Source: Rhodococcus sp. HNM0563 (GTDB taxonomy: Bacteria; Actinomycetota; Actinomycetes; Mycobacteriales; Mycobacteriaceae). From it: 64,000 nt of DNA. Below, one piece after another: positions 34,726 to 44,480 of the stretch. Numbering within the stretch: position 1 is the stretch's first letter; every line of letters starts with the position of its first letter. Position numbers and translations under genes: made by a program. The DNA lies in assembly GCF_012726195.1 (NCBI RefSeq), contig NZ_JAASAF010000003.1, positions 496,001-560,000 on the forward strand, written 5' to 3'. The notes beneath the pieces are model-generated. The model searched no databases. It saw only the letters and a program-made list of their open reading frames with translations, and was not told the DNA's origin.

Positions 34726-36348
34726 TCAGATTCGAGACAGAATGCCTTCGGTGTCGACCCCTGTGGGCAGAGTGCCCAGTGCGATTCCCCAATCGGAATC
34801 GAGCCGGCTCGCGCAGAACGCATCGGCCACCGCGGGGTGCCCGTGCCGCACCAGTTGAGCTGCCTGCAACACCAGCGCCATGAGTTCGACGATGCGTCGG
34901 GCCCGGTATTCGATGTTCTCGAAATCGGCGAGTTCTTTGCCGACGCGCGCGATCGCGTCGTCGAGCCGGCTGTCGGCGCCCTCGGCCAACCGGACTTCGG
35001 AGAAGAATGCTTCGACGCTGTCGGGTTGCTTGACCATCGCGCGGAGTGCGTCGAGGGCTGCGACGTTGCCCGAACCCTCCCAGATGGACATCAGCGGCGC
35101 CTCCCGGTAGAGCCGCGGCATGCCCGATTCCTCGGCGTAGCCGTTACCGCCGAGGCATTCGAGGGCTTCGGCGCTGTGCGCGGGGGCGCGCTTGCATACC
35201 CAGTACTTGGTGACCGCCAGCGCGATCCGGCGCAGCGCCGCTTCCTGTTCGTCACCACCCGCGCGGTCGGTCGCTCCGGCAAGCCGCATCATCATGGTGG
35301 TGGCCGCCTCGGATTCGACGACGAGATCGGCGAGGACGTTGCGCATGAGCGGCTGATCGATGAGCAACGCGCCGAACGCCTTACGATGACGGGCGTGGTG
35401 CACGGCGCGTAGCGTGGCCGCCCGCATTCCGGTCGACGAGCCGATGACGCAATCGAGCCTGGTCATGTTCACCATCTCGATGATCGTGTTGACGCCGCGA
35501 CCCTCCGGCCCCACGAGCCACCCGATCGCGCCCTGGTATTCGATCTCGGACGACGCGTTGGACTTGTTGCCGAGCTTGTCCTTCAGGCGCTGGATATGGA
35601 TGCGGTTGCGCGTGCCGTCGGGCAGCACCCGCGGCAGCAGAAAACACGACGAGCCGGTCTCCGTGTTGGCCAGGGTCAGGAACACGTCGGACATCGGAGC
35701 CGAGGTGAACCACTTGTGGCCGACGATCGTGTAGCTGCCGTCGGCGTTGGGTGTCGCCGTCGTGGTGTTGGCACGGACGTCGGAGCCGCCCTGTTTCTCG
35801 GTCATGGACATGCCTGCGATCAGGCCGCGCTTGGACGTCGGTTCGCGCAGGCCGAAGTCGTAGTGGGGTGCCGCGAGGAGCGGCTCGTAGATCGCTGCGA
35901 GCTCCGGGTTGTGCCGCAACGCGGGAATCGCGGCGTAGGTCATGGAGATCGGGCACATGTGCCCGGCGTCGGCCTGCCCCCACACATAGAATTTGGCGGC
36001 GCGGGCGACGTGCGCACCCGGGCGAGGATCCCTCCACGGTGCGCCGTGCAGGCCGTGCTCGACGGCGACGGTCATCAGGTCGTGCCAGTGCGGATGGAAT
36101 TCGACTTCGTCGATCCGGTTTCCGTAGCGGTCGTGAGTATGCAGAACGGGCGGATACTCATTGGCGAGCCTGCCCCATTCCTGTGCCTCGACACCACCGG
36201 CGAGCACGCCGAGTTCACGGACCTCGTCTTCGGCCCAGGATGCGCCCTCGCGGCGCAGCCCTTCCAGCAGCGCTCGGTCGTCGGCGGCGTGAAAGGGCAC
36301 GAGATCGGGTACCTGATTGAACACTTCGTGTGTGGCCGGGAATGTCAT
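34726..36348 (-). CDS. AidB-like acyl-CoA dehydrogenase
   Basis: This 540-aa flavoprotein starts at ATG 36348 behind AGGAGTTCCGTC. The N terminus (THEVFNQVPDLVPF) and the overall length fit the AidB branch rather than ordinary acyl-CoA dehydrogenases of about 390 aa. The flavin-binding block EKQGGSDVRANTTTA and the C-terminal CLGGNGYAEES are present. E. coli AidB is part of the alkylation response and binds DNA; many actinobacterial members are probable acyl-CoA dehydrogenases. It is coupled to the TetR gene by a 4-nt overlap, so it is likely the regulator's target. Confidence 0.88.
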   Translation of the reverse strand: MTFPATHEVFNQVPDLVPFHAADDRALLEGLRREGASWAEDEVRELGVLAGGVEAQEWGRLANEYPPVLHTHDRYGNRIDEVEFHPHWHDLMTVAVEHGLHGAPWRDPRPGAHVARAAKFYVWGQADAGHMCPISMTYAAIPALRHNPELAAIYEPLLAAPHYDFGLREPTSKRGLIAGMSMTEKQGGSDVRANTTTATPNADGSYTIVGHKWFTSAPMSDVFLTLANTETGSSCFLLPRVLPDGTRNRIHIQRLKDKLGNKSNASSEIEYQGAIGWLVGPEGRGVNTIIEMVNMTRLDCVIGSSTGMRAATLRAVHHARHRKAFGALLIDQPLMRNVLADLVVESEAATTMMMRLAGATDRAGGDEQEAALRRIALAVTKYWVCKRAPAHSAEALECLGGNGYAEESGMPRLYREAPLMSIWEGSGNVAALDALRAMVKQPDSVEAFFSEVRLAEGADSRLDDAIARVGKELADFENIEYRARRIVELMALVLQAAQLVRHGHPAVADAFCASRLDSDWGIALGTLPTGVDTEGILSRI

Positions 36349-36980
36349 GACGGAACTCCTTCGTGCCGGTCCAGGGCCGGGTCGCATCCTGCCGCGCGCA
36401 GACCGAGGGTGACGAGATCGGGAATGGTGGTGGCGGCCGCCTCACCGACGCTGAGGGGGCCGGTGAGGACTTCACCGACGGCCCCGACGAGGGCTGCGGC
36501 CACGAGCCCGGGGTTCTGCGGGGGTAGTTCGCCGGTGGTGACACCGAGTCGGATCGCGTCGGCGAACGCGGCGGCGAACGCACGACGGAAGAGGAGTCGC
36601 TCGGCGTCGACAGCTGCGTCGACGGGTTCGGCGAGCAGGGCGTATGCCAGGGTGGGTTTCCGCAATGCGCGGGAGGCGAACGTCTCGATGACTCGCGCGA
36701 TACGTTCGGCGGCCGTTCCGGTGGTGGCGACGGCGTTGACCGCGTCGACCTCGCGACCACACTGTTCGCGGAAGACGCGGACCATGAGATCGGATTTGTC
36801 CGTGAAATGCCGGTAGACGGTGCCGGTGGCGACTCCGGCTCGCTCGGCGACGGCCGCGATGGACAACCCCTGGTACCCGTGTTCGGTCAACAACGAAACC
36901 GCCGCGGACGCGATGGCGTCGCGTTGGGCGTCGAGTCGTTGCTGCACTGCTGGGGTACGCCGATAGGCCACACCAAGCAT
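36345..36980 (-). CDS. TetR-family repressor
   Basis: This 211-aa protein starts at ATG 36980 (MLGVAYRRTPAVQQRLDAQ). The N-terminal helix-turn-helix is AAVAERAGVATGTVYRHFTDKSDLM. The C-terminal ligand domain is helical. The AidB-like gene follows with overlapping stop and start. Three dyad elements directly upstream of the start are natural operators. The ligand could be an acyl-CoA, as for many TetR proteins next to acyl-CoA dehydrogenases; this is inference. Confidence 0.9.
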   Translation of the reverse strand: MLGVAYRRTPAVQQRLDAQRDAIASAAVSLLTEHGYQGLSIAAVAERAGVATGTVYRHFTDKSDLMVRVFREQCGREVDAVNAVATTGTAAERIARVIETFASRALRKPTLAYALLAEPVDAAVDAERLLFRRAFAAAFADAIRLGVTTGELPPQNPGLVAAALVGAVGEVLTGPLSVGEAAATTIPDLVTLGLRAAGCDPALDRHEGVPS

Positions 36981-37023
36981 TGAACTTGGGTTCACCCCTT
37001 GAGTCAAGGCCCTCGAGTCAAGG
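36981..37023. promoter_or_regulatory. Tandem operators upstream of the tetR-aidB operon
   Basis: CCTTGAGTCAAGG (36997-37009) is a perfect 13-bp palindrome. It is repeated 14 bp away as CCTCGAGTCAAGG (37011-37023) with one change. A third dyad, TGAAC-TTGG-GTTCA (36981-36994), touches the ATG. They lie between the sigma-factor gene end and the TetR start and are probably bound by the TetR protein. TTGACT inside the repeats on the minus strand could serve as a -35 element. Confidence 0.7.
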
Positions 37024-37044
37024 AGCATCGCGCATCGGCGACGG

Positions 37045-37563
37045 TCATGCCGTGGGAGCGAGTGCCTCCACGAGTCGGGTGCGCGCACGGTTGATCCGGC
37101 TCTTGACGGTCTGCACCCCGATCCCCTGATGCTCAGCGATTTCGGCATAGCTGAGCTGCGCGTATTCACGGAGCACGACCGCGGCGCGGTATTCGTCCGG
37201 CAGGTCTGCGAGCGCGCGGCGCACCGCGTCGACGTCGACGACGCGGTCGGCCACCGGCGACTCGGAACTCACACCCAGATCGATCTCGTCGACCATCACC
37301 TCGCGGCGACGACGCACGGTCGCCAGAGCCGCGTTCGCCGCTATGCGATGCAGCCACGTGCTGAACTTGGCGGTGCCCCGGAACTTGTCGAGGTTCTGCC
37401 ATGCCGCAGTCAATGCGTCCTGCAGCGCGTCTTCTGCGTCGTACCGGTTGCCGGTGATCTGGAGGCACACTGCCCAGGTGCGGGTTCGATAGGCACCCAC
37501 CAGCTCACCGAACGCTGCGGTGTCGCCGGCTCGGCACTGCGCGATCAGCTCGTCGTCGTCCAT
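37045..37563 (-). CDS. ECF-type RNA polymerase sigma factor
   Basis: This 172-aa sigma-70 family protein has only regions 2 and 4. Region 2 is AYRTRTWAVCLQITGNRYDAEDALQDALTAAW in pieces, with KFSTWLHRIAANAALATVRRRR. Region 4 is LPDEYRAAVVLREYAQLSYAEIAE with helix-turn-helix GIGVQTVKSRINRAR. It starts at ATG 37563 behind GGGGG; a second ATG lies at 37575. No anti-sigma gene follows. The genes upstream on the same strand are the dynamin/Hsp70 cluster, so control by, or of, that cluster is possible. Confidence 0.92.
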   Translation of the reverse strand: MDDDELIAQCRAGDTAAFGELVGAYRTRTWAVCLQITGNRYDAEDALQDALTAAWQNLDKFRGTAKFSTWLHRIAANAALATVRRRREVMVDEIDLGVSSESPVADRVVDVDAVRRALADLPDEYRAAVVLREYAQLSYAEIAEHQGIGVQTVKSRINRARTRLVEALAPTA

Positions 37564-37580
37564 ACATACCCCCATGTCGT

Positions 37581-37597
37581 GGCGGTAGATTACCGCC
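37581..37597. promoter_or_regulatory. Perfect hairpin between acidic-protein gene and sigma factor gene
   Basis: GGCGGTA and TACCGCC form a perfect 7-bp stem with a 3-nt loop, 18 bp upstream of the sigma-factor ATG and 19 bp after the preceding gene. There is no T-run, so it may be an operator or mRNA element rather than a terminator. Confidence 0.5.
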
Positions 37598-37615
37598 CCC
37601 GACTTCGGCCGAGGA

Positions 37616-37936
37616 TCACCATCCCAGGTCGAGCCCGTCGAGTCCACCGGAGACCGGCTCGTCCAGGTCGGTTCCGGAGTCGCTGTACACATCGGAGGTC
37701 TCGTCTTCCGGGCCGGAATCGGTGCCACCCAGAACGATGTCGTCATCGTCGAGAACGATGTCGTCGCCGGCCGCTACAGATGCGTCGTCGGGCACGAGCC
37801 CGGAGGGGGCGATCGCCGCATCGGGATCCACCGCCGCCCCCACCGCACCGTCCCACACGTCGTCGGGCACCGGCTCGAGGGCACTGTCAGGTGACAGTCC
37901 CAAAGCCTCCCACAGGGAAACATCCGAGTCGCTCAT
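37616..37936 (-). CDS. Small, very acidic protein of unknown function
   Basis: The protein is 106 aa, starting MSDSDVSLWEALGLSPDS. There are about 30 Asp or Glu and no Lys or Arg that I can see, so the calculated charge is near -30. No membrane segment or signal is present. The N-terminal SLWEALGLSPDSALEPVP could be a short helical module; the rest looks disordered. It follows the repeat protein by 22 bp in the dynamin/Hsp70 cluster. No family is recognised, and its role may be as a flexible partner or ion-binding peptide. Confidence 0.7.
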   Translation of the reverse strand: MSDSDVSLWEALGLSPDSALEPVPDDVWDGAVGAAVDPDAAIAPSGLVPDDASVAAGDDIVLDDDDIVLGGTDSGPEDETSDVYSDSGTDLDEPVSGGLDGLDLGW

Positions 37937-37958
37937 CGCGTCCCCTTCCCGGAGTCGG

Positions 37959-38333
37959 TCACATCAGGCCGGTCGAATCGGTGGACTCCGCCGATCCCGT
38001 GTCGGATTCGAGTGTGTATACCTCGTCGGCGTATCCGTCCTGGTCGTAGTCGACGCCCATCACGTCGGCCACACCATCGCCATCGACGTCGACCATCACG
38101 GTGTCGACGATACCGTCGCCGTCCATGTCGAAGTCACCTTCGTCGATCACTCCGTCCTCGTTGTGATCGAACAGTGCACCATCGATACGCCCGTCACCGT
38201 CGAGGTCGACGTACAGGGTGTCGGCAACTCCGTCGCCGTCACGGTCGACCGCGCCCTCGCCGAGTGCCGGGTTCGGGACCGGGCCCTGCTCCGAATTGGA
38301 TCCCGGTCCGACACCGTAAGGATTCTCTGCCAT
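37959..38333 (-). CDS. Acidic protein of calcium-loop-like repeats
   Basis: This 124-aa protein has about seven repeats of the type DxDGDGxxD (DRDGDGVADTLYVDLDGDGRID and following units, from residue 30 to 105). These resemble the calcium-binding loops of thrombospondin type-3, dockerin and EF-hand-like proteins. No signal peptide is visible. The ATG at 38333 follows GAGGACTAG. It sits between the Hsp70-like gene and the acidic-protein gene. Calcium binding is inferred from the repeat only. Confidence 0.8.
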   Translation of the reverse strand: MAENPYGVGPGSNSEQGPVPNPALGEGAVDRDGDGVADTLYVDLDGDGRIDGALFDHNEDGVIDEGDFDMDGDGIVDTVMVDVDGDGVADVMGVDYDQDGYADEVYTLESDTGSAESTDSTGLM

Positions 38334-38400
38334 CTAGTCCTCGATTCTCGCTGCTCATCTGCTTACGACAATGAGATGCAGCGACAACCACAAATGTTCC

Positions 38401-38420
38401 CGGCCGACGAACATCGGCCG
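38401..38420 (-). terminator. Hairpin downstream of the Hsp70-like gene
   Basis: CGGCCGA (38401-38407) and TCGGCCG (38414-38420) form a perfect 7-bp stem with a 6-nt loop, 10 bp after the Hsp70-like stop. No T-run follows, so attenuation or RNA processing is as likely as full termination. Confidence 0.45.
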
Positions 38421-38429
38421 AACCGGAAA

Positions 38430-39509
38430 CTACGACCAGCCCCCGTCGACGACCGTCGACTCCGTGCTCACCGGGGCAGTCCCGTCCCCGCGAGCCGAGG
38501 AATTCTCCGGCAGCCCCCGCACAGCGGCAACCGCGACTCCCGCCACGATCAGGGCGCTTGCCACCACGATCCCCACGGGCCGGATCCAGCCGATCGCGCG
38601 GGCGCGCAGGCTCTGCCTGCTGTTCTCGGCCAAGATCAGCGCCCCCTCCGCCACCACGGCGGGATCGCTCGGTGCCGCGAGAGGGCCGAGGTGCGCCAGC
38701 CTGTTACGTAACAGGGGTATTCGCGCAGACCCTCCGGTCACGCACAGAACGTCGAGATCTCCCACTCCGAACCCGGCATCGGTCAGGGTGCCCCACATGG
38801 TCTCGACCACACGGTCGATGTGCGGTGTGATCGCAGCGTCGAACTCTTCGCGAGTCAGAGTCGCGGCGTGTTCGCTACCGTCGAGCGTCACAGCGATCGT
38901 GGCCGTTTGCTCGGATGTCAATGCTTCCTTCGCGCGTCGCGCCTGCTCGTCGAACTCCCGATGCACACCCAGCGACGCCTGCTGTAGTTGCGCGGCGAAC
39001 CCCGGCTCGCGCGTGGTGAACACGCCTTCTGCCCACCTGCGTACGGCCGCGTCGAGGGTCCGGCCGCCGAGCGTGTCGTCGCCTCGGGCTGCCACCACCT
39101 CGAATCCCCCGGCCTCGGTCACGACAACCACGGCCGTATCCAGCGAGGTGCCACCGAAGTCGCAGACCGCGTACACCGACCCACCTCGTAGCGTCCGGCC
39201 CTGGGTGCAGTATTCGACGGTGGCCCGAGCCTCGGAGACCGTCATGATCGTGCGCGCATCGATGCCCGCTCGCGCCCCGGCGTCGGCGAGCGTCCGGATC
39301 TGCTGCTCCGACCAGGCGTCCGGATGCGTGAGAACCACGACTTTCGGACGTTGCCCGTGATGTGCGGCGAGGGTCCGCTCGTACACCACCTCGATGGGCC
39401 GGACCGCATCATCGACGACCATCGGCTCGACGGTACCGCGTATCGGATTGGTATGCGCAGCAACCGTATTCGACGCACCGAAGTCGATCGACAGCATCCA
39501 GCCGGACAA
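38430..39509 (-). CDS. Truncated Hsp70-type ATPase with C-terminal membrane anchor
   Basis: The protein is 359 aa, starting at TTG 39509 behind GAGGGGG; an ATG at 39497 would remove part of the first strand. The actin/Hsp70 ATPase signatures are present: phosphate-1 LSIDFGASNTVAA, phosphate-2 VCDFGGTSLDTAVV, and adenosine motif LCVTGGSARIPLLRNRL. The substrate-binding domain of DnaK is absent. Instead a single membrane helix (about residues 312-330) and a 29-residue Ser/Gly-rich tail follow. It lies downstream of two dynamin-like GTPase genes. It may be a membrane-tethered nucleotide switch rather than a chaperone. Confidence 0.88.
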   Translation of the reverse strand: MSGWMLSIDFGASNTVAAHTNPIRGTVEPMVVDDAVRPIEVVYERTLAAHHGQRPKVVVLTHPDAWSEQQIRTLADAGARAGIDARTIMTVSEARATVEYCTQGRTLRGGSVYAVCDFGGTSLDTAVVVVTEAGGFEVVAARGDDTLGGRTLDAAVRRWAEGVFTTREPGFAAQLQQASLGVHREFDEQARRAKEALTSEQTATIAVTLDGSEHAATLTREEFDAAITPHIDRVVETMWGTLTDAGFGVGDLDVLCVTGGSARIPLLRNRLAHLGPLAAPSDPAVVAEGALILAENSRQSLRARAIGWIRPVGIVVASALIVAGVAVAAVRGLPENSSARGDGTAPVSTESTVVDGGWS

Positions 39510-39568
39510 CGAACCCCCTCTACGAACACACCGTTTCGTCCGACATCATGCCCCATCCGATTCCGAAA

Positions 39569-41005
39569 TCAACTGTGGGTCCGCCAGATGGTGGTATAAG
39601 CCCGCGTGAGCACCGTCAGAGCTGCATCCTCGGCCGCGGTGGACGCGGTCAACGTGCGCTGCTGGACCGCTGCGAGCCGCTGCGCCGCTGCGTCACGGAT
39701 GGCGCCCGCAGGCGCCGAGGCAGGCAGACGCAACCGCTCGGCGAACGTCCGGCCGCGCAGCAGGTCTACCAGTTCCGCAACCAGCGCCGCGGACGGATCT
39801 GCCCGCAACAGTGCCCGAAGCGCTCGCAACAACAACACCGGCGTCAGCGCCGGATCGTTCTCCAGCGCGTACGCGATCGACCGAATGTGATCGCGAGCGG
39901 GATGACTGTACGCGAGCGAATCGATCTCCCGCAGGATCCGGCCCGCACGTTGCAGCACCGCATATTCACGCAGGGACGTGTGCAGTACCTCGCGGAGACG
40001 ACCGACACCGGATCGTTCGGACAGCCAGGTCCCCAACGCATGTGCACCCCCCGTCGCCACCTGACGTCCGTGCACGAGTCCGTACTCGCCCACCAGGTCG
40101 AGCAGTCGCTCGACGGTGGATGGGTCCACCGGCATGGGATCGCCCACGTCGATGATGTCGAACAGCTCCCGGCCGGGCGGCCCTGCCAGCGAACGCAACG
40201 CCCGCGCATCGGTCTCGGTGAGTCGGCCCGTATGGCTGGTCTCCGCAAGCAGACCCGCAACGGGGATCACCGAGCCGACCAGTCCGGGTAGTTGCGCCGC
40301 CAGCACGGCCGCGTGGTCCGCGGCGTGTGGGATCGGGTCACGTCGACCCAGCGCTCCCTCCCCGAAACCGTCAGCGCGAGAGAGCACACCGAGCGTCGTC
40401 AGCGGCGTGAACCCGAGCTGATGCAGGAAATCGACCTCGTCGGCACGCGGTGCGGAATCGAAGAGGAAGATCGCCGCATCTGCATCCACCGACGCCGTAC
40501 GGGTCTGCTCGTATCCGTCGATCAGCGCACGCCGGGTCGTGGCGGCATTGTCGACCGTCAGCGTCGCGAGCCCCGGAGTGTCGATCAGCGTGATGTCCGA
40601 CAACGACTGGGACGGGAGAAACCGCTGCACATAGGCGATTTCAGTGGGCGGGAAAGCGGGTTCGACCGTCCCCCCGAAACTCAACGGCTGCGGGACGACA
40701 CTGCCGTCGAGTTTGACCACCTCGGCCCGCGACGGCGCGCCGTTGCTGTAGACGGTGACGACGTTGGTCGCCTCGAGAGCCGCGGTCTCGGCCAGCGGGG
40801 CACCGATCAATGCATTGACCAGTGTCGACTTACCGGCCTTGAGGCGACCGACGACGACGATCCGCGGCGGTGAGAAGAGGATCGCACCGATTCGCGACGC
40901 GTGCGACGGCAGATCGCCGCCCAAATTCGCCAGAGAGTGCAGTGCCGATTCGATCCGAGCGTGCACCGGATCGACGGCTCGCTGGGGGCTCCCGCCCTGA
41001 GGCAT
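39569..41005 (-). CDS. Dynamin-like GTPase, IniC-like
   Basis: This 478-aa protein has a GTPase G1 motif GRLKAGKST (residues 53-61), G3 DTPGLA, and a G4-like SRAD. The C-terminal half is helical, with no clear long membrane paddle. It starts at ATG 41005, sharing one base with the stop of the upstream IniA-like gene. The order and sizes (about 610 and 480 aa) match iniA-iniC of M. tuberculosis, the isoniazid-inducible dynamin-like pair. Two-subunit bacterial dynamins remodel or fuse membranes. Confidence 0.87.
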   Translation of the reverse strand: MPQGGSPQRAVDPVHARIESALHSLANLGGDLPSHASRIGAILFSPPRIVVVGRLKAGKSTLVNALIGAPLAETAALEATNVVTVYSNGAPSRAEVVKLDGSVVPQPLSFGGTVEPAFPPTEIAYVQRFLPSQSLSDITLIDTPGLATLTVDNAATTRRALIDGYEQTRTASVDADAAIFLFDSAPRADEVDFLHQLGFTPLTTLGVLSRADGFGEGALGRRDPIPHAADHAAVLAAQLPGLVGSVIPVAGLLAETSHTGRLTETDARALRSLAGPPGRELFDIIDVGDPMPVDPSTVERLLDLVGEYGLVHGRQVATGGAHALGTWLSERSGVGRLREVLHTSLREYAVLQRAGRILREIDSLAYSHPARDHIRSIAYALENDPALTPVLLLRALRALLRADPSAALVAELVDLLRGRTFAERLRLPASAPAGAIRDAAAQRLAAVQQRTLTASTAAEDAALTVLTRAYTTIWRTHS

Positions 41006-42846
41006 CAACTCTGCACTCCCGAAGTCTGTGGTCCTGCCAGCAGTTTCTCGATCGCCTCGATCCGGTTGAGCACGATCTTCCGGTTCTTCTTCAACCGCTC
41101 CAAGGTCTTCTCACGTGTCGCGGCATCGAGCCTGGCAGTTTCCTGCGCTTCCTTCAATTGACTCTGCAGATCCTCGATACGACTCTTCAGGTCGTCGCGG
41201 TGGCGCAGCACGATCTCCGGCCGCCCCACCGACAACGCCGACTCGAGCATGCGGGAGGTGCCTGTCCGGGTTGCGGCCAACGTCTCCCGCAACCAGTTGA
41301 GGAGGTTGGTCTTTCCAGTGCGCATCGCCTTGTAACCGAGGTTGACGGCCACCCACACCACCCCGGCCACGGCACCCACACCGATGACCGCGCCGAGCAT
41401 CGACGTGCCGATCATGCCCATCGTCAGGACGCTCGGATCGAGCAGGCCCTGCCGTTTCGAACCGACCTCGGCCGAGCTGACGGTGCCGGTCTGCATGGCG
41501 GCCCACACAAGTTCGCGGATTTCCGACCACTGCGGTGAGTTCTGGCCGAACAGTTCCGCGACGATCACTTCGATGCGTTCGAGGAACACCTGCGCGGCCG
41601 ATTCCATCGCAGCGAGCAGATCGGTCTGCATGTCGGCGGTGAAACTCTGTGCGCTACGCCGCATCACCTCGAGCGACGACTTGTTGACCCGGGTAGTCCA
41701 CTGTTGCTTGATCCGGTCGAGTTCCTCATCGAGATGGGTGAGCGCGGCCTGGCGGGCCAGAGTCAGATCCCGGGCGAGGTATTGCTCCCACTGCTGCGAC
41801 CTGTTCTTCAGATCCTGCAGGCGGTCGCGTTCGGCGGTGAGATCAGCGGTTGCAGTGGCGCTGTCCTCGATCACCGCGATGTCCGAAGCGACCCGTTCCT
41901 CGACGCGACGAAGCCCTTCGAGGAGGGTGCGGAGCGCGTCGGCCTGGGGAAGTTCTGCCCTCGCGTCGAGCAAGGCATCGATCTGTGCGCGCAGTTCGAC
42001 GATCCCCGACGCCCGTTCGGCCCGATCTCGCGCGGGCCCGGGCGCCATCTGAGCGGCGAGTGCCGCACGCAGGCTCGACACGCCCAGCACCGGTATCTGC
42101 CGATTCAGGTGGCGTTCGATCAAGGCGCGGTTCTCGCCGACTATGGGGCGCCAGCGTCGCAGGTTCTTGTCGGTCTTGGTGACTACCACGACCACCGATT
42201 CGACGGACGCGGACGCATCGCGCAGGAAGGTCATCTCGGGTTCGGTCAGCGGGGTGGAGGCGTCGCAGACCATCACCAGCACCGACGCTTGTCGCGCCGA
42301 CTGGGTTGCGAGCGCAGTGTGGGAGGCGACGAGCCCGCCGGAGCCCGGGGTGTCCACGACGACGGCTCCGCCGAGGACGGGCCGGTGGGTCGCGACGACC
42401 GCGCCGGTCGGCAGGTCCTCGATCGTGGGGTCGGATACACGCGCACCATTGCTGGTGATCCAGTCCGGAAGTTCGGCCCGCGAGATCGGCACACTTCGAT
42501 CTGCGTAGAGAAGTTCAGCGGATCCCGGCGGGTACCGGTCGTCGGGCGGCACGAACCGCACCGCTGCGGACGTGGTGGTCTCGACGGCGGACGGTGACGC
42601 ATCGAGTTCCCCGACGAGAGCGTTGACCAGCGCGCTCTTACCGCGCTGCACCTCTCCCACCACCACCACGGTGCGGCGCTGCACGGGTGCCTTCGATTTG
42701 GCCAAGGCGAGCTCGGCCGTGGCATTGCGTCCGTACGCGCGCAGCACCTTCACCGACGCCTCGACCAGTACATCTACGTCGACAACCTCGGGACGAGTCG
42801 TCTCTGCAGCGGATTGCGCGGGCTGCGTGGTCTGGGTTCCGGTCAC
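41005..42846 (-). CDS. Dynamin-like GTPase, IniA-like
   Basis: The protein is 613 aa from GTG 42846, chosen because AGGAGGTGCTG stands directly in front; the frame is open further upstream without a ribosome site. G1 is GEVQRGKS (64-71), G3 is DTPGSGG and G4 is TKTDK. Long helices follow, then a hydrophobic paddle (about 474-505, LTMGMIGTSMLGAVIGVGAV) and a C-terminal coiled coil. M. tuberculosis IniA has this layout and causes membrane fission in vitro. It is the first gene of the cluster. Confidence 0.9.
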   Translation of the reverse strand: MTGTQTTQPAQSAAETTRPEVVDVDVLVEASVKVLRAYGRNATAELALAKSKAPVQRRTVVVVGEVQRGKSALVNALVGELDASPSAVETTTSAAVRFVPPDDRYPPGSAELLYADRSVPISRAELPDWITSNGARVSDPTIEDLPTGAVVATHRPVLGGAVVVDTPGSGGLVASHTALATQSARQASVLVMVCDASTPLTEPEMTFLRDASASVESVVVVVTKTDKNLRRWRPIVGENRALIERHLNRQIPVLGVSSLRAALAAQMAPGPARDRAERASGIVELRAQIDALLDARAELPQADALRTLLEGLRRVEERVASDIAVIEDSATATADLTAERDRLQDLKNRSQQWEQYLARDLTLARQAALTHLDEELDRIKQQWTTRVNKSSLEVMRRSAQSFTADMQTDLLAAMESAAQVFLERIEVIVAELFGQNSPQWSEIRELVWAAMQTGTVSSAEVGSKRQGLLDPSVLTMGMIGTSMLGAVIGVGAVAGVVWVAVNLGYKAMRTGKTNLLNWLRETLAATRTGTSRMLESALSVGRPEIVLRHRDDLKSRIEDLQSQLKEAQETARLDAATREKTLERLKKNRKIVLNRIEAIEKLLAGPQTSGVQS

Positions 42847-42965
42847 CAGCACCTCCTCTCCTGCACCGGGTGCGACAGTATCGGACACCGGAAAACCGGG
42901 CGTTACCGGACATAGAGGCACGACGCTCATACTGGTGTGACGGGCCGTCACGTACAGTGCGCACC

Positions 42966-44480
42966 ATGACGTCCGAGACACTCGTCACAATCCCGGACGG
43001 CGCGGTCCGCGGCATCCGCACCGGCGACCTCCTCGCCTGGCGGGGTATCCCCTACGCCGCGCCGCCGGTCGGCCCGTTGCGGTTGCGTGCGCCGCAGCCC
43101 GTCGAGCCGTGGTCGGGCGTCCTCGACGCGACTCGCTTCGGGAACGCCGCGAGTCAGCATCCGCGCGGCCTGGTCACCGGTGCAGGCACCCGGGTCGCCG
43201 CCGGCGAAGACTGTCTGACGCTCAACGTGCTCGCCCCGTCGGGCCGCGTCCACACGCCCCGGCCGGTGATGGTGTTCATCCACGGTGGCGCCTTCACCAT
43301 GGGCACCAGCGCGTTGTCCGTGTACAGCGGCGATTCCCTCGTGCGCGACGGCGACATCGTGTACGTCTCACTCAACTATCGTCTCGGCGCGCTCGGCTAT
43401 CTCGACTTCACCGAGTACTCCGACGCCTCTCGCCCCTTCGATTCCAATCTCGGTCTCCGCGACCAAGTGGCCGCGCTCGAATGGGTCCAACGCAACATCG
43501 CCGCGTTCGGTGGCGACCCGCAGAACGTGACCATCTTCGGTGAGTCCGCGGGCGGCACGTCGGTCACCACTTTGCTCGCGACCCCTGCCGCGCACGGACT
43601 GTTCGCCCGCGCGATCGCGCAGAGCCCCGCGCCGGGGCTGGTCAACACCGCCGATCGCACTCGCGAGTGGGGTCGGCGCTTCATCGAATTGCTCGGCGCC
43701 GACGCCGCCACCGCGGCGAAGGCACTGTCGGACGCATCCCCGGCAGAACTGGGGCGCGCCGGCTCACGCCTCGGGGCCTCGGTCATGCGTGCGACGCCGG
43801 GGTTGCACCCGTTCGGTCCGGTCGTCGACGGGAAGTACCTGCCGGTGGCACCACTCGAGGCGTACGAAGCGGGCACCGTGCACCCGGTCCCCTTGATCAT
43901 CGGAACGAACGACCGCGAGGGCGCGCTCTTCCCGCGGTTCCTCGATGCACTCCCCACCGATCCGCAACGGATCGAGCGGATGTTCGCGGGCACCGACCCC
44001 GACGCCCACGATCGCATCACCGCGGTGTATCCCGGGTATCCCTCCGAACGTGCCGCCATCGACCTCGGCGGCGACACCACCTTCTGGTATCCGTCGGTGC
44101 AGATCGCGCAGGCCCATGCACGACACGCACCGACGTTCGCCTACCGCTACGACTTCGCTCCCCGCCTGCTTCGATGGACGGGTTTCGACGCCACGCACGC
44201 CGTCGAACTGCTCGCCGTATTCGGACAAGCCGACGAACTGCTGGGCAGGCTGCTCACCTCGGTGGGTGGCCGTCGTGATCTGCGGACGGTCTCCGCCGCA
44301 GTACAGCGCCAGTGGCTGCAGTTCGCGCGACACGGCGAACCGTTGCCGTCGTGGCCTCGTTACGACGAGACCGACCGCGCGACCGTGGTGTTCGACGTGC
44401 CGACCCGCGTGGAGCATGACCCTCGCAGTGAGCGCAGACTCGCGTGGGAAGGCTATCGCGGTTATTCCCCTGCGCTGTAG
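42966..44480 (+). CDS. Type-B carboxylesterase
   Basis: This 504-aa alpha/beta hydrolase has the type-B signature: EDCLTLNVLAP, VMVFIHGGAFTMG (oxyanion hole) and the nucleophile elbow FGESAGGTSV. The N terminus IPDGAVRGIRTGDLLAWRGIPYA is typical, and there is no signal peptide. It hydrolyses carboxylic esters; the natural substrate is unknown. The start ATG 42966 is divergent from the dynamin cluster across a 119-bp gap. Confidence 0.93.
   Translation: MTSETLVTIPDGAVRGIRTGDLLAWRGIPYAAPPVGPLRLRAPQPVEPWSGVLDATRFGNAASQHPRGLVTGAGTRVAAGEDCLTLNVLAPSGRVHTPRPVMVFIHGGAFTMGTSALSVYSGDSLVRDGDIVYVSLNYRLGALGYLDFTEYSDASRPFDSNLGLRDQVAALEWVQRNIAAFGGDPQNVTIFGESAGGTSVTTLLATPAAHGLFARAIAQSPAPGLVNTADRTREWGRRFIELLGADAATAAKALSDASPAELGRAGSRLGASVMRATPGLHPFGPVVDGKYLPVAPLEAYEAGTVHPVPLIIGTNDREGALFPRFLDALPTDPQRIERMFAGTDPDAHDRITAVYPGYPSERAAIDLGGDTTFWYPSVQIAQAHARHAPTFAYRYDFAPRLLRWTGFDATHAVELLAVFGQADELLGRLLTSVGGRRDLRTVSAAVQRQWLQFARHGEPLPSWPRYDETDRATVVFDVPTRVEHDPRSERRLAWEGYRGYSPAL

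Follow-up and report, generated by a model that had tools for sequence, protein, structure and literature searches.

The 64,000-nucleotide stretch of Rhodococcus sp. HNM0563 analysed here (the window) carries between positions 37045 and 42846 six genes, for an IniA-like dynamin (DynA), an IniC-like dynamin (DynC), a membrane-anchored Hsp70-type ATPase, an acidic repeat protein, a small acidic protein and an extracytoplasmic function (ECF) sigma factor. We found that this gene set is conserved together across genomes, and that a specific ECF-type promoter lies ahead of several of its genes and of an unlinked gene for a CD225/dispanin protein. With a probability of roughly 55%, judged from sequence, we read the set as an envelope membrane-remodelling module that is controlled by its ECF sigma factor and runs parallel to iniBAC. 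The gene set is apparently undescribed, and no description of a dynamin–Hsp70–ECF sigma module was found in the open-licence literature. The original prediction was of a membrane-remodelling or envelope-damage device in which the ATPase would gate the dynamins and the acidic proteins would serve as ion-binding or scaffold parts, both conjectural roles; the envelope or membrane role fits the protein families, and the shared promoter widens it to a regulon, but the ATPase of the window is a reduced form.

Module-type DynA (E ≤ 1e-40) occurs in 51 of the 201 genomes of the GTDB family, at 54 places and in 17 of 31 genera. We profiled 53 of these neighbourhoods; the place in genome G032 lies outside the 53 and was later added as locus L157, and the neighbourhood of G146 (L046) is counted with the results of L007, as its length (267413) and equal matches point to one and the same contig. 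All five core families lie within ≤20 kb of the module DynA in 37 of the 53 neighbourhoods but in none of 20 random 20-kb stretches from the same genomes, which rejects a chance neighbourhood. The original prediction had set joint conservation of the neighbours beforehand as the point on which it would stand or fall, and it stands. Forty neighbourhoods were fetched later than the seed loci and seeded no profile; 26 of them hold all five families. DynC was found in 51 of the 53 neighbourhoods, the repeat protein in 46, the Hsp70-like protein in 44, the sigma factor in 43, a DUF7373 lipoprotein in 27, the acidic protein in 26, a C39-like peptidase in 10, a GrpE-like protein in 9, and a transporter with FHA and ATP-binding cassette (ABC) domains (FHA-ABC) in 3. 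The random stretches gave no match to DynA, DynC, Hsp70, repeat, acidic, C39, GrpE-like or DUF7373 proteins, only two weak sigma matches (56 and 76 bits, with a cut-off of 180) and some ABC matches. The two dynamin genes are adjacent and on the same strand in 48 of the 50 loci carrying both. DynA at E ≤ 1e-40 is rare outside the family: it is present in 10 of 298 genomes of an order sample (five of them within the family) and in 4 of 345 of a class sample (two within the family). DynA, DynC and Hsp70 matches occur together in five of the seven outgroup loci (L150, L151, L152, L154, and L155), the remaining two (L149 and L153) sit at contig ends, and at a looser threshold weak GrpE-like matches of 37–58 bits appear in L149–L153. 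Judging from these matches, the dynamins, the Hsp70 and perhaps the GrpE-like protein look like the older core.

The sigma factor also appears to track the module. In five of the six module genomes with no sigma factor in the first neighbourhood (G165, G045, G081, G116, and G044), a sigma factor of 58–66% identity is encoded elsewhere or just outside, vs. at most 42% in four non-module genomes.

Seven known ECF promoter patterns (e.g., GGAAC-CGTC) reached no more than about 1.6 times the expected number of matches (10 vs. 6.2; 13 vs. 8.2). A de novo dyad search upstream of the module genes, with one shuffle per set as the background, returned GGAAC-N16/18-CATC pairs well above the shuffle, mainly ahead of the repeat and DUF7373 genes; dyads ahead of the DynA, sigma and Hsp70 genes also exceeded the shuffle and were attributed to near-identical loci and coding repeats. 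A loose form of the motif has 138 matches in 1.10 Mb of module loci; 0.40 Mb of random stretches gave 16. For the strict form, GGGAAC-N15..18-GCATCnnA, there are 71 matches in 54 loci (1.01 Mb), always with a spacer of 16 or 17; 398 kb of random stretches gave no strict match, and the reversed pattern does not occur in the 54 loci. Fifty-three of the 71 strict matches lie ≤420 bp ahead of a module gene, in 28 of the 54 loci, and are assigned to the repeat (20), DUF7373 (14), DynA (7), acidic (7), Hsp70 (4) and GrpE-like (1) genes. Over all 201 genomes, the 51 module genomes contain 188 strict matches and the 150 others 155 (means 3.7 and 1.0; p = 2e-12, a guide only, the species being related), while the reversed control gives ≤2 per strand and genome. 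The 5.54-Mb genome of the window itself has three strict matches and one reversed match.

The promoter of the window, GGGAAC-N16-GCATCTCA at 38401-38372 on the minus strand, lies 38 bp ahead of the ATG of the repeat gene. In three species, CGGGAACATT and GCATC are invariant inside a spacer that has otherwise diverged. We infer from the sequence pattern that the motif is the ECF promoter for the module sigma factor, which would thereby positively autoregulate its repeat–acidic–sigma unit. An inverted repeat, CGGCCGA/TCGGCCG, at 38370-38420 (minus strand) overlaps the −35 element. A hairpin at this position as a structured element was rejected, as the sequence folds no better than its shuffles (z = −0.87 for the window and −0.42 for L007).

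On contig C7 of the same genome, a further motif copy starts 83 bp ahead of the start codon of a CD225/dispanin gene (L162:4539-4966; PF04505, ~1e-15). Among 25 module genomes, 10 of the 17 with a CD225 gene, those being the window's genome and nine others, have a strict promoter ≤420 bp from the CD225 domain (for nine of the 10 it was seen in the loci fetched, 30 out of 33 matches, and for one it was placed by coordinates). Of 17 CD225-bearing genomes in a non-module set of 25, two have the promoter (G068 and G084). The G068 sigma factor is 64% identical to that of the window and belongs to a DUF7373–sigma–acidic group with no dynamin or Hsp70 matches. The second CD225 gene of the window's genome (contig C50) has no strict site. 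The IFITM-like CD225/dispanin protein is, by its promoter, an unlinked member of the regulon outside the window. CD225 proteins are reported to regulate membrane fusion in animals (PMC11730294).

DynA (42846-41005, minus strand; 613 amino acids from a GTG start) and DynC (41005-39569, minus strand; 478 amino acids from an ATG start) share exactly one base, as the original prediction stated, given the ATG start of DynC; the DynA start is uncertain, and longer upstream starts are possible. Both proteins match Dynamin_N (5e-14 and 2e-9, respectively). DynA has the motifs GEVQRGKS (G1), DTPG (G3) and TKTD (G4), and DynC has GRLKAGKS (G1), DTPG (G3) and a degenerate G4, SRAD; the P-loop and DTPG are intact in both. 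The sole PDB relative of DynA at E ≤ 0.01 is IniA (6j72, 1e-15). The hydrophobic segment of DynA, residues 473-501, is close to the possible membrane segment of IniA at 463-485, and IniA performs GTP-dependent membrane fission in vitro, both according to PMC6715688. A DynA tree was used only to place the window among the module dynamins; four of the six rows labelled canonical IniA (L073, L076, L082, and L084) are apparent mispicked open reading frames with very long branches. Two more single weak Dynamin_N matches occur in the genome of the window (C1:455220, L005/L011; C44:383288, L006/L012).

The Hsp70-type protein (39509-38430, minus strand; 359 amino acids from a TTG start) matches Pfam HSP70 at 6e-25, which confirms the nucleotide-binding domain. 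The profile aligns only up to position 349 of 599, and the protein has no substrate-binding domain; a single transmembrane (TM) segment at residues 312-330 is followed by about 29 residues to the C-terminus. The spacing between the DFGxS and THPxxW motifs is 46 amino acids in the window protein vs. 102–110 in 60 other entries. In a search for the segment P[KR][RTSL], PK was present in 54 of these 60 entries and nowhere in the window protein. The limits of subdomain IB and the role of the K70-equivalent lysine, catalytic in DnaK, are taken as in DnaK; K71 mutants of Hsc70 appear among the PDB titles of the structural matches. The window protein has lost the greater part of subdomain IB, including the K70-equivalent lysine, and has no ectodomain, but it is under purifying selection. 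A frameshift or start error shortening a full-length Hsp70 was rejected, for the 46-residue spacing recurs in all three orthologues and the frames are open. Gating driven by ATP, as originally predicted, is doubtful for the window copy, because it has lost the lysine segment that its relatives retain, along with the bulk of subdomain IB. The copy is expected to bind nucleotide with little hydrolysis, and a static anchor or regulator seems likelier than an ATP-driven gate.

A search with this protein found three named relatives, Rhodococcus sp. SMB37 (88%), R. yananensis (53%) and R. ruber (43%). The predicted structure of the full-length R. ruber protein has a predicted local distance difference test score (pLDDT) below 50 past residue 356, and so makes no statement on the fold of the ectodomain. 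The 50 VIA-align structural matches listed are Hsp70-family proteins judging by their titles; FtsA and PilM are absent among these 50, which excludes nothing. Three other places in the same genome hold Hsp70 genes with no dynamin matches: C5:105000-121000 (L044), with repeat, GrpE-like, Hsp70 and DUF7373 genes; C3:158000-174000 (L045), with Hsp70, repeat and DUF7373 genes; and C1:712000-730000 (L043), with two tandem Hsp70 genes by an apparent nuo operon.

The repeat protein (38333-37959, minus strand; 124 amino acids) contains six DxDGDGxxD-type loops at an exact 13-residue spacing, and the small acidic protein (37936-37616, minus strand; 106 amino acids, 29 of them Asp or Glu) adjoins the sigma gene. 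Both have an isoelectric point of about 4.05 and no hydrophobic segment. The repeat protein resembles DUF6802 below the Pfam cut-off (4e-4), and the acidic protein has no Pfam match at E ≤ 0.01. The sigma factor (37563-37045, minus strand; 172 amino acids) contains only regions 2 and 4 (PF04542 and PF08281, both ~1e-16, scanned as a longer 233-residue frame); its best NCBIfam match, SigM, scores 126 bits, under the cut-off of 190. No known anti-sigma family was matched; the acidic protein is a candidate anti-sigma factor. The acidic and sigma genes lie <800 bp apart in 24 of the 25 loci where both were found, with the acidic gene first in 17 loci and second in 8. The acidic profile misses members: by eye, L120 and L123 have an acidic-like gene located behind the promoter and ahead of the sigma gene. 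As a first guess from gene order, the acidic protein may act on the sigma factor as its partner or inhibitor, because the two genes mostly remain neighbours even in loci from which other parts are gone or have been relocated (L054, L057, and L257). The GrpE-like protein of relatives matches PF01025 (2e-9 and 5e-6) and GrpE in the PDB (0.002). A large FHA-ABC transporter gene lies within the module near the repeat gene in L054, L057 and L099. By profile search, the GrpE-like, DUF7373 and C39 genes are missing from the window locus. No paper on DUF7373 or DUF6802 was found in the open-licence full-text literature.

The six genes stand in the predicted order on one strand, with gaps from DynA to the sigma gene of −1, 59, 96, 22 and 52 bp, and the ratio of nonsynonymous to synonymous substitution rates (dN/dS) of all six against the L007 orthologues is 0.04–0.28 (0.07 for the sigma factor). 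The single run first proposed is real as an arrangement, but the six genes are unlikely to share a single transcript; they probably form two transcription units, because the promoter sits in the 96-bp gap between the Hsp70 and repeat genes. No Rfam family reached its gathering score within 36000-44000. Upstream of DynA lies a divergent gene (42966-44480, plus strand), presumably carboxylesterase-like; this label, like IniR-like, IniB-like and dnaK-grpE-dnaJ below, comes from reading translations and not from a family search. Downstream, the gene call gives a distance of 64 bp between the sigma gene and a TetR gene. In the two nearest orthologous loci, an extra reversed gene absent from the window lies between these two (L007:10480-11766; L047:9392-10663).

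We propose the following mechanism. Envelope damage, sensed through the acidic partner and in relatives also through the DUF7373 lipoprotein, would free or activate the sigma factor. This factor would then induce the repeat–acidic–sigma unit and the CD225 protein, and elsewhere also the lipoprotein, the Hsp70 and the dynamins, and the DynA/DynC pair might bend, cut or seal the membrane with GTP. In relatives, the Hsp70-type protein with its outside ectodomain, in some with a GrpE-like exchange factor, could couple the state of the envelope to the dynamins; it would act as an ATP/ADP switch and not as a client-folding chaperone, because it has no substrate-binding domain. In the window lineage this proposed switch is reduced: the locus has no GrpE-like gene, and the protein is without its ectodomain, the K70-equivalent and the greater part of subdomain IB. 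The protein may be a nucleotide-locked membrane anchor or may regulate the two dynamins, and the repeat–GrpE–Hsp70–DUF7373 locus on contig C5 might assist it in trans. Only tentatively, and at less than even odds, do we go further and picture a dedicated actinobacterial dynamin-control machine, in which a membrane-anchored client-less Hsp70, equipped with a GrpE-like exchange factor and an outside sensor domain, would switch a pair of heteromeric dynamins under a private sigma regulon that would also supply a CD225/dispanin protein for fusion control; the window ATPase would be an IB-less, FtsA-like locked switch, an Hsp70 form not known to us elsewhere.

Several observations weigh against the reading as a sigma-controlled module. 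The neighbourhood counts rest on profiles seeded from the window and 16 loci, hence partly from loci that were counted, in related species, and at least one core family is missing in 16 of the 53 neighbourhoods, not all of them at contig ends. No strict match lies ahead of a module gene in 26 of the 54 loci, and 18 of the 71 matches are assigned to no module gene (some precede acidic-like, CD225 or unknown genes); the third match in the genome of the window is likewise unassigned. There is no strict promoter ahead of DynA in the window, so that induction of the dynamins there lacks the support of the motif. The module genome G028 has no sigma factor closer than 39%, and the non-module genomes G084, G019, G130 and G142 have typical motif copies with no sigma factor closer than 42%, including one ahead of a C39-like gene in G019 (L164, contig C29) and one ahead of CD225 in G084 (L258). 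Such copies do not fit a one-to-one link; they may be relic sites or may serve another ECF factor. In L093 a distance of 3.4 kb separates the acidic gene from the sigma gene, and in L095 the two are on different strands. That the sigma unit can part from the dynamins is seen in G068, which has no module DynA and keeps only the DUF7373 lipoprotein, sigma and acidic genes, still grouped (L257).

Among the other explanations, we consider it unlikely that the module exports or assembles acidic proteins, with the repeat, C39-like and acidic proteins as cargo and the Hsp70 and dynamins powering a vesicle-like or gated release, after which the Ca-loop proteins would fold outside the cell. The repeat gene has the largest share of the assigned strict promoter matches (20 of 53), the cargo candidates start with no evident signal sequence by eye, the repeat and acidic proteins of the window have no hydrophobic segment, and FHA-ABC genes join the module in three loci; but the repeat and acidic proteins may remain cytoplasmic, and no more than 3 of 53 loci have such a transporter above the cut-off. 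A slim chance goes to anti-phage defence through membrane collapse or repair, like the dynamin-based Eleos (LeoA/LeoBC). DynA and, more weakly, DynC match LeoBC and LeoA of PADLOC, the distribution of the module between species is patchy, and animal CD225/IFITM proteins are reported to restrict viruses (PMC4488726). In our judgement, any bacterial dynamin would be expected to give such weak matches. Seven further module proteins were scanned, and none matches PADLOC at E ≤ 0.01; a promoter common to lipoprotein, repeat and CD225 genes is in keeping with an envelope response.

The reduced ATPase bears on two further explanations. Its actin-superfamily fold, membrane helix and missing substrate domain would suit a cell-division or septum device, in which the IB-poor Hsp70 fold is an FtsA/PilM-type adaptor holding the dynamins at the division site, where DynA and DynB of Streptomyces act. 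ECF-type control, presence in just 51 of 201 genomes, and Ca-loop, lipoprotein and peptidase partners all misfit a division core, and we regard this as very improbable. That the window copy is a decaying remnant of a full module, kept by chance, would account for the loss of IB, the ectodomain and the GrpE-like, DUF7373 and C39 genes, and the L008 orthologue also has a decayed phosphate-2 motif and a faster-evolving Hsp70 (dN/dS 0.49). The reading frames are open in three species, however, dN/dS against L007 is low, and the promoter is invariant within its diverged spacer, and decay therefore seems improbable. An envelope membrane-remodelling module under its own sigma factor remains the reading that we favour.

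The module is a genetic handle on the purpose and control of bacterial dynamins, with a private promoter and sigma factor, a conserved Hsp70-type partner, a GrpE-like protein in some species and, at an unlinked site, a CD225/dispanin gene as a target. Through it one can test directly if dynamins can be regulated by an Hsp70 fold and if CD225 proteins of bacteria join a membrane-repair response, and it illustrates how an Hsp70 nucleotide-binding domain sheds subdomain IB and is nevertheless retained.

Compared with known systems, the module shares paired bacterial dynamins with Eleos. DynA matches LeoBC at 50 bits (5e-14) and LeoA at 40 bits (7e-11), and DynC matches LeoA at 22 bits (2e-5) and LeoBC at 17 bits (5e-4), in a library with no cut-off; the Hsp70, repeat, acidic and sigma proteins of the window and the C39-like, DUF7373 and Hsp70 proteins of R. 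ruber differ in having no PADLOC match at E ≤ 0.01. FtsA and PilM are likewise membrane-tied actin-superfamily domains with no IB beside a self-assembling partner, whereas the sequence and fold matches of the window protein are Hsp70. In the case of DnaK/Hsp70 with GrpE, the nucleotide-binding fold and ATP motifs are shared, and a GrpE-like gene is found near the module in 9 of the 53 neighbourhoods and beside the Hsp70-like gene on contig C5. The module protein differs from DnaK in having one TM helix, an ectodomain in relatives and no substrate-binding domain, and the window lineage also in the loss of most of subdomain IB and the K70-equivalent.

The adjacent IniA/IniC-type dynamin pair is shared with iniBAC. 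The window as an iniBAC orthologue was rejected, as DynA is a distant paralogue (60 bits, 1e-15, against Mycobacterium smegmatis IniA) and the same genome has a separate canonical iniBAC on contig C12 (its IniA at 607 bits, 5e-181). That locus (L010, C12:232000-250000) encodes an IniB-like protein of 610 amino acids, IniA and IniC beside an apparent dnaK-grpE-dnaJ group, with an Hsp70-like gene (590 amino acids, with a TM segment) divergent from the iniB-like gene and an 816-residue large ATPase, IniR-like from its position and start. The original prediction held the ATPase to be foreign to iniBAC; this point is weakened by L010 and by PMC5760070, which mentions that in M. smegmatis a dnaK-like gene lies downstream of iniR. 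By gene content, a dynamin pair with a nearby membrane Hsp70 appears twice in the genome. The iniB gene directly upstream of the dynamins in iniBAC, present as an iniB-like gene at L010, has no counterpart upstream of DynA in the window, and no iniB-like or iniR-like gene was read beside the window pair. Instead, the window module has its own ECF sigma factor, promoter, and Ca-loop and acidic partners, to which its relatives add GrpE-like, DUF7373 and C39 partners.

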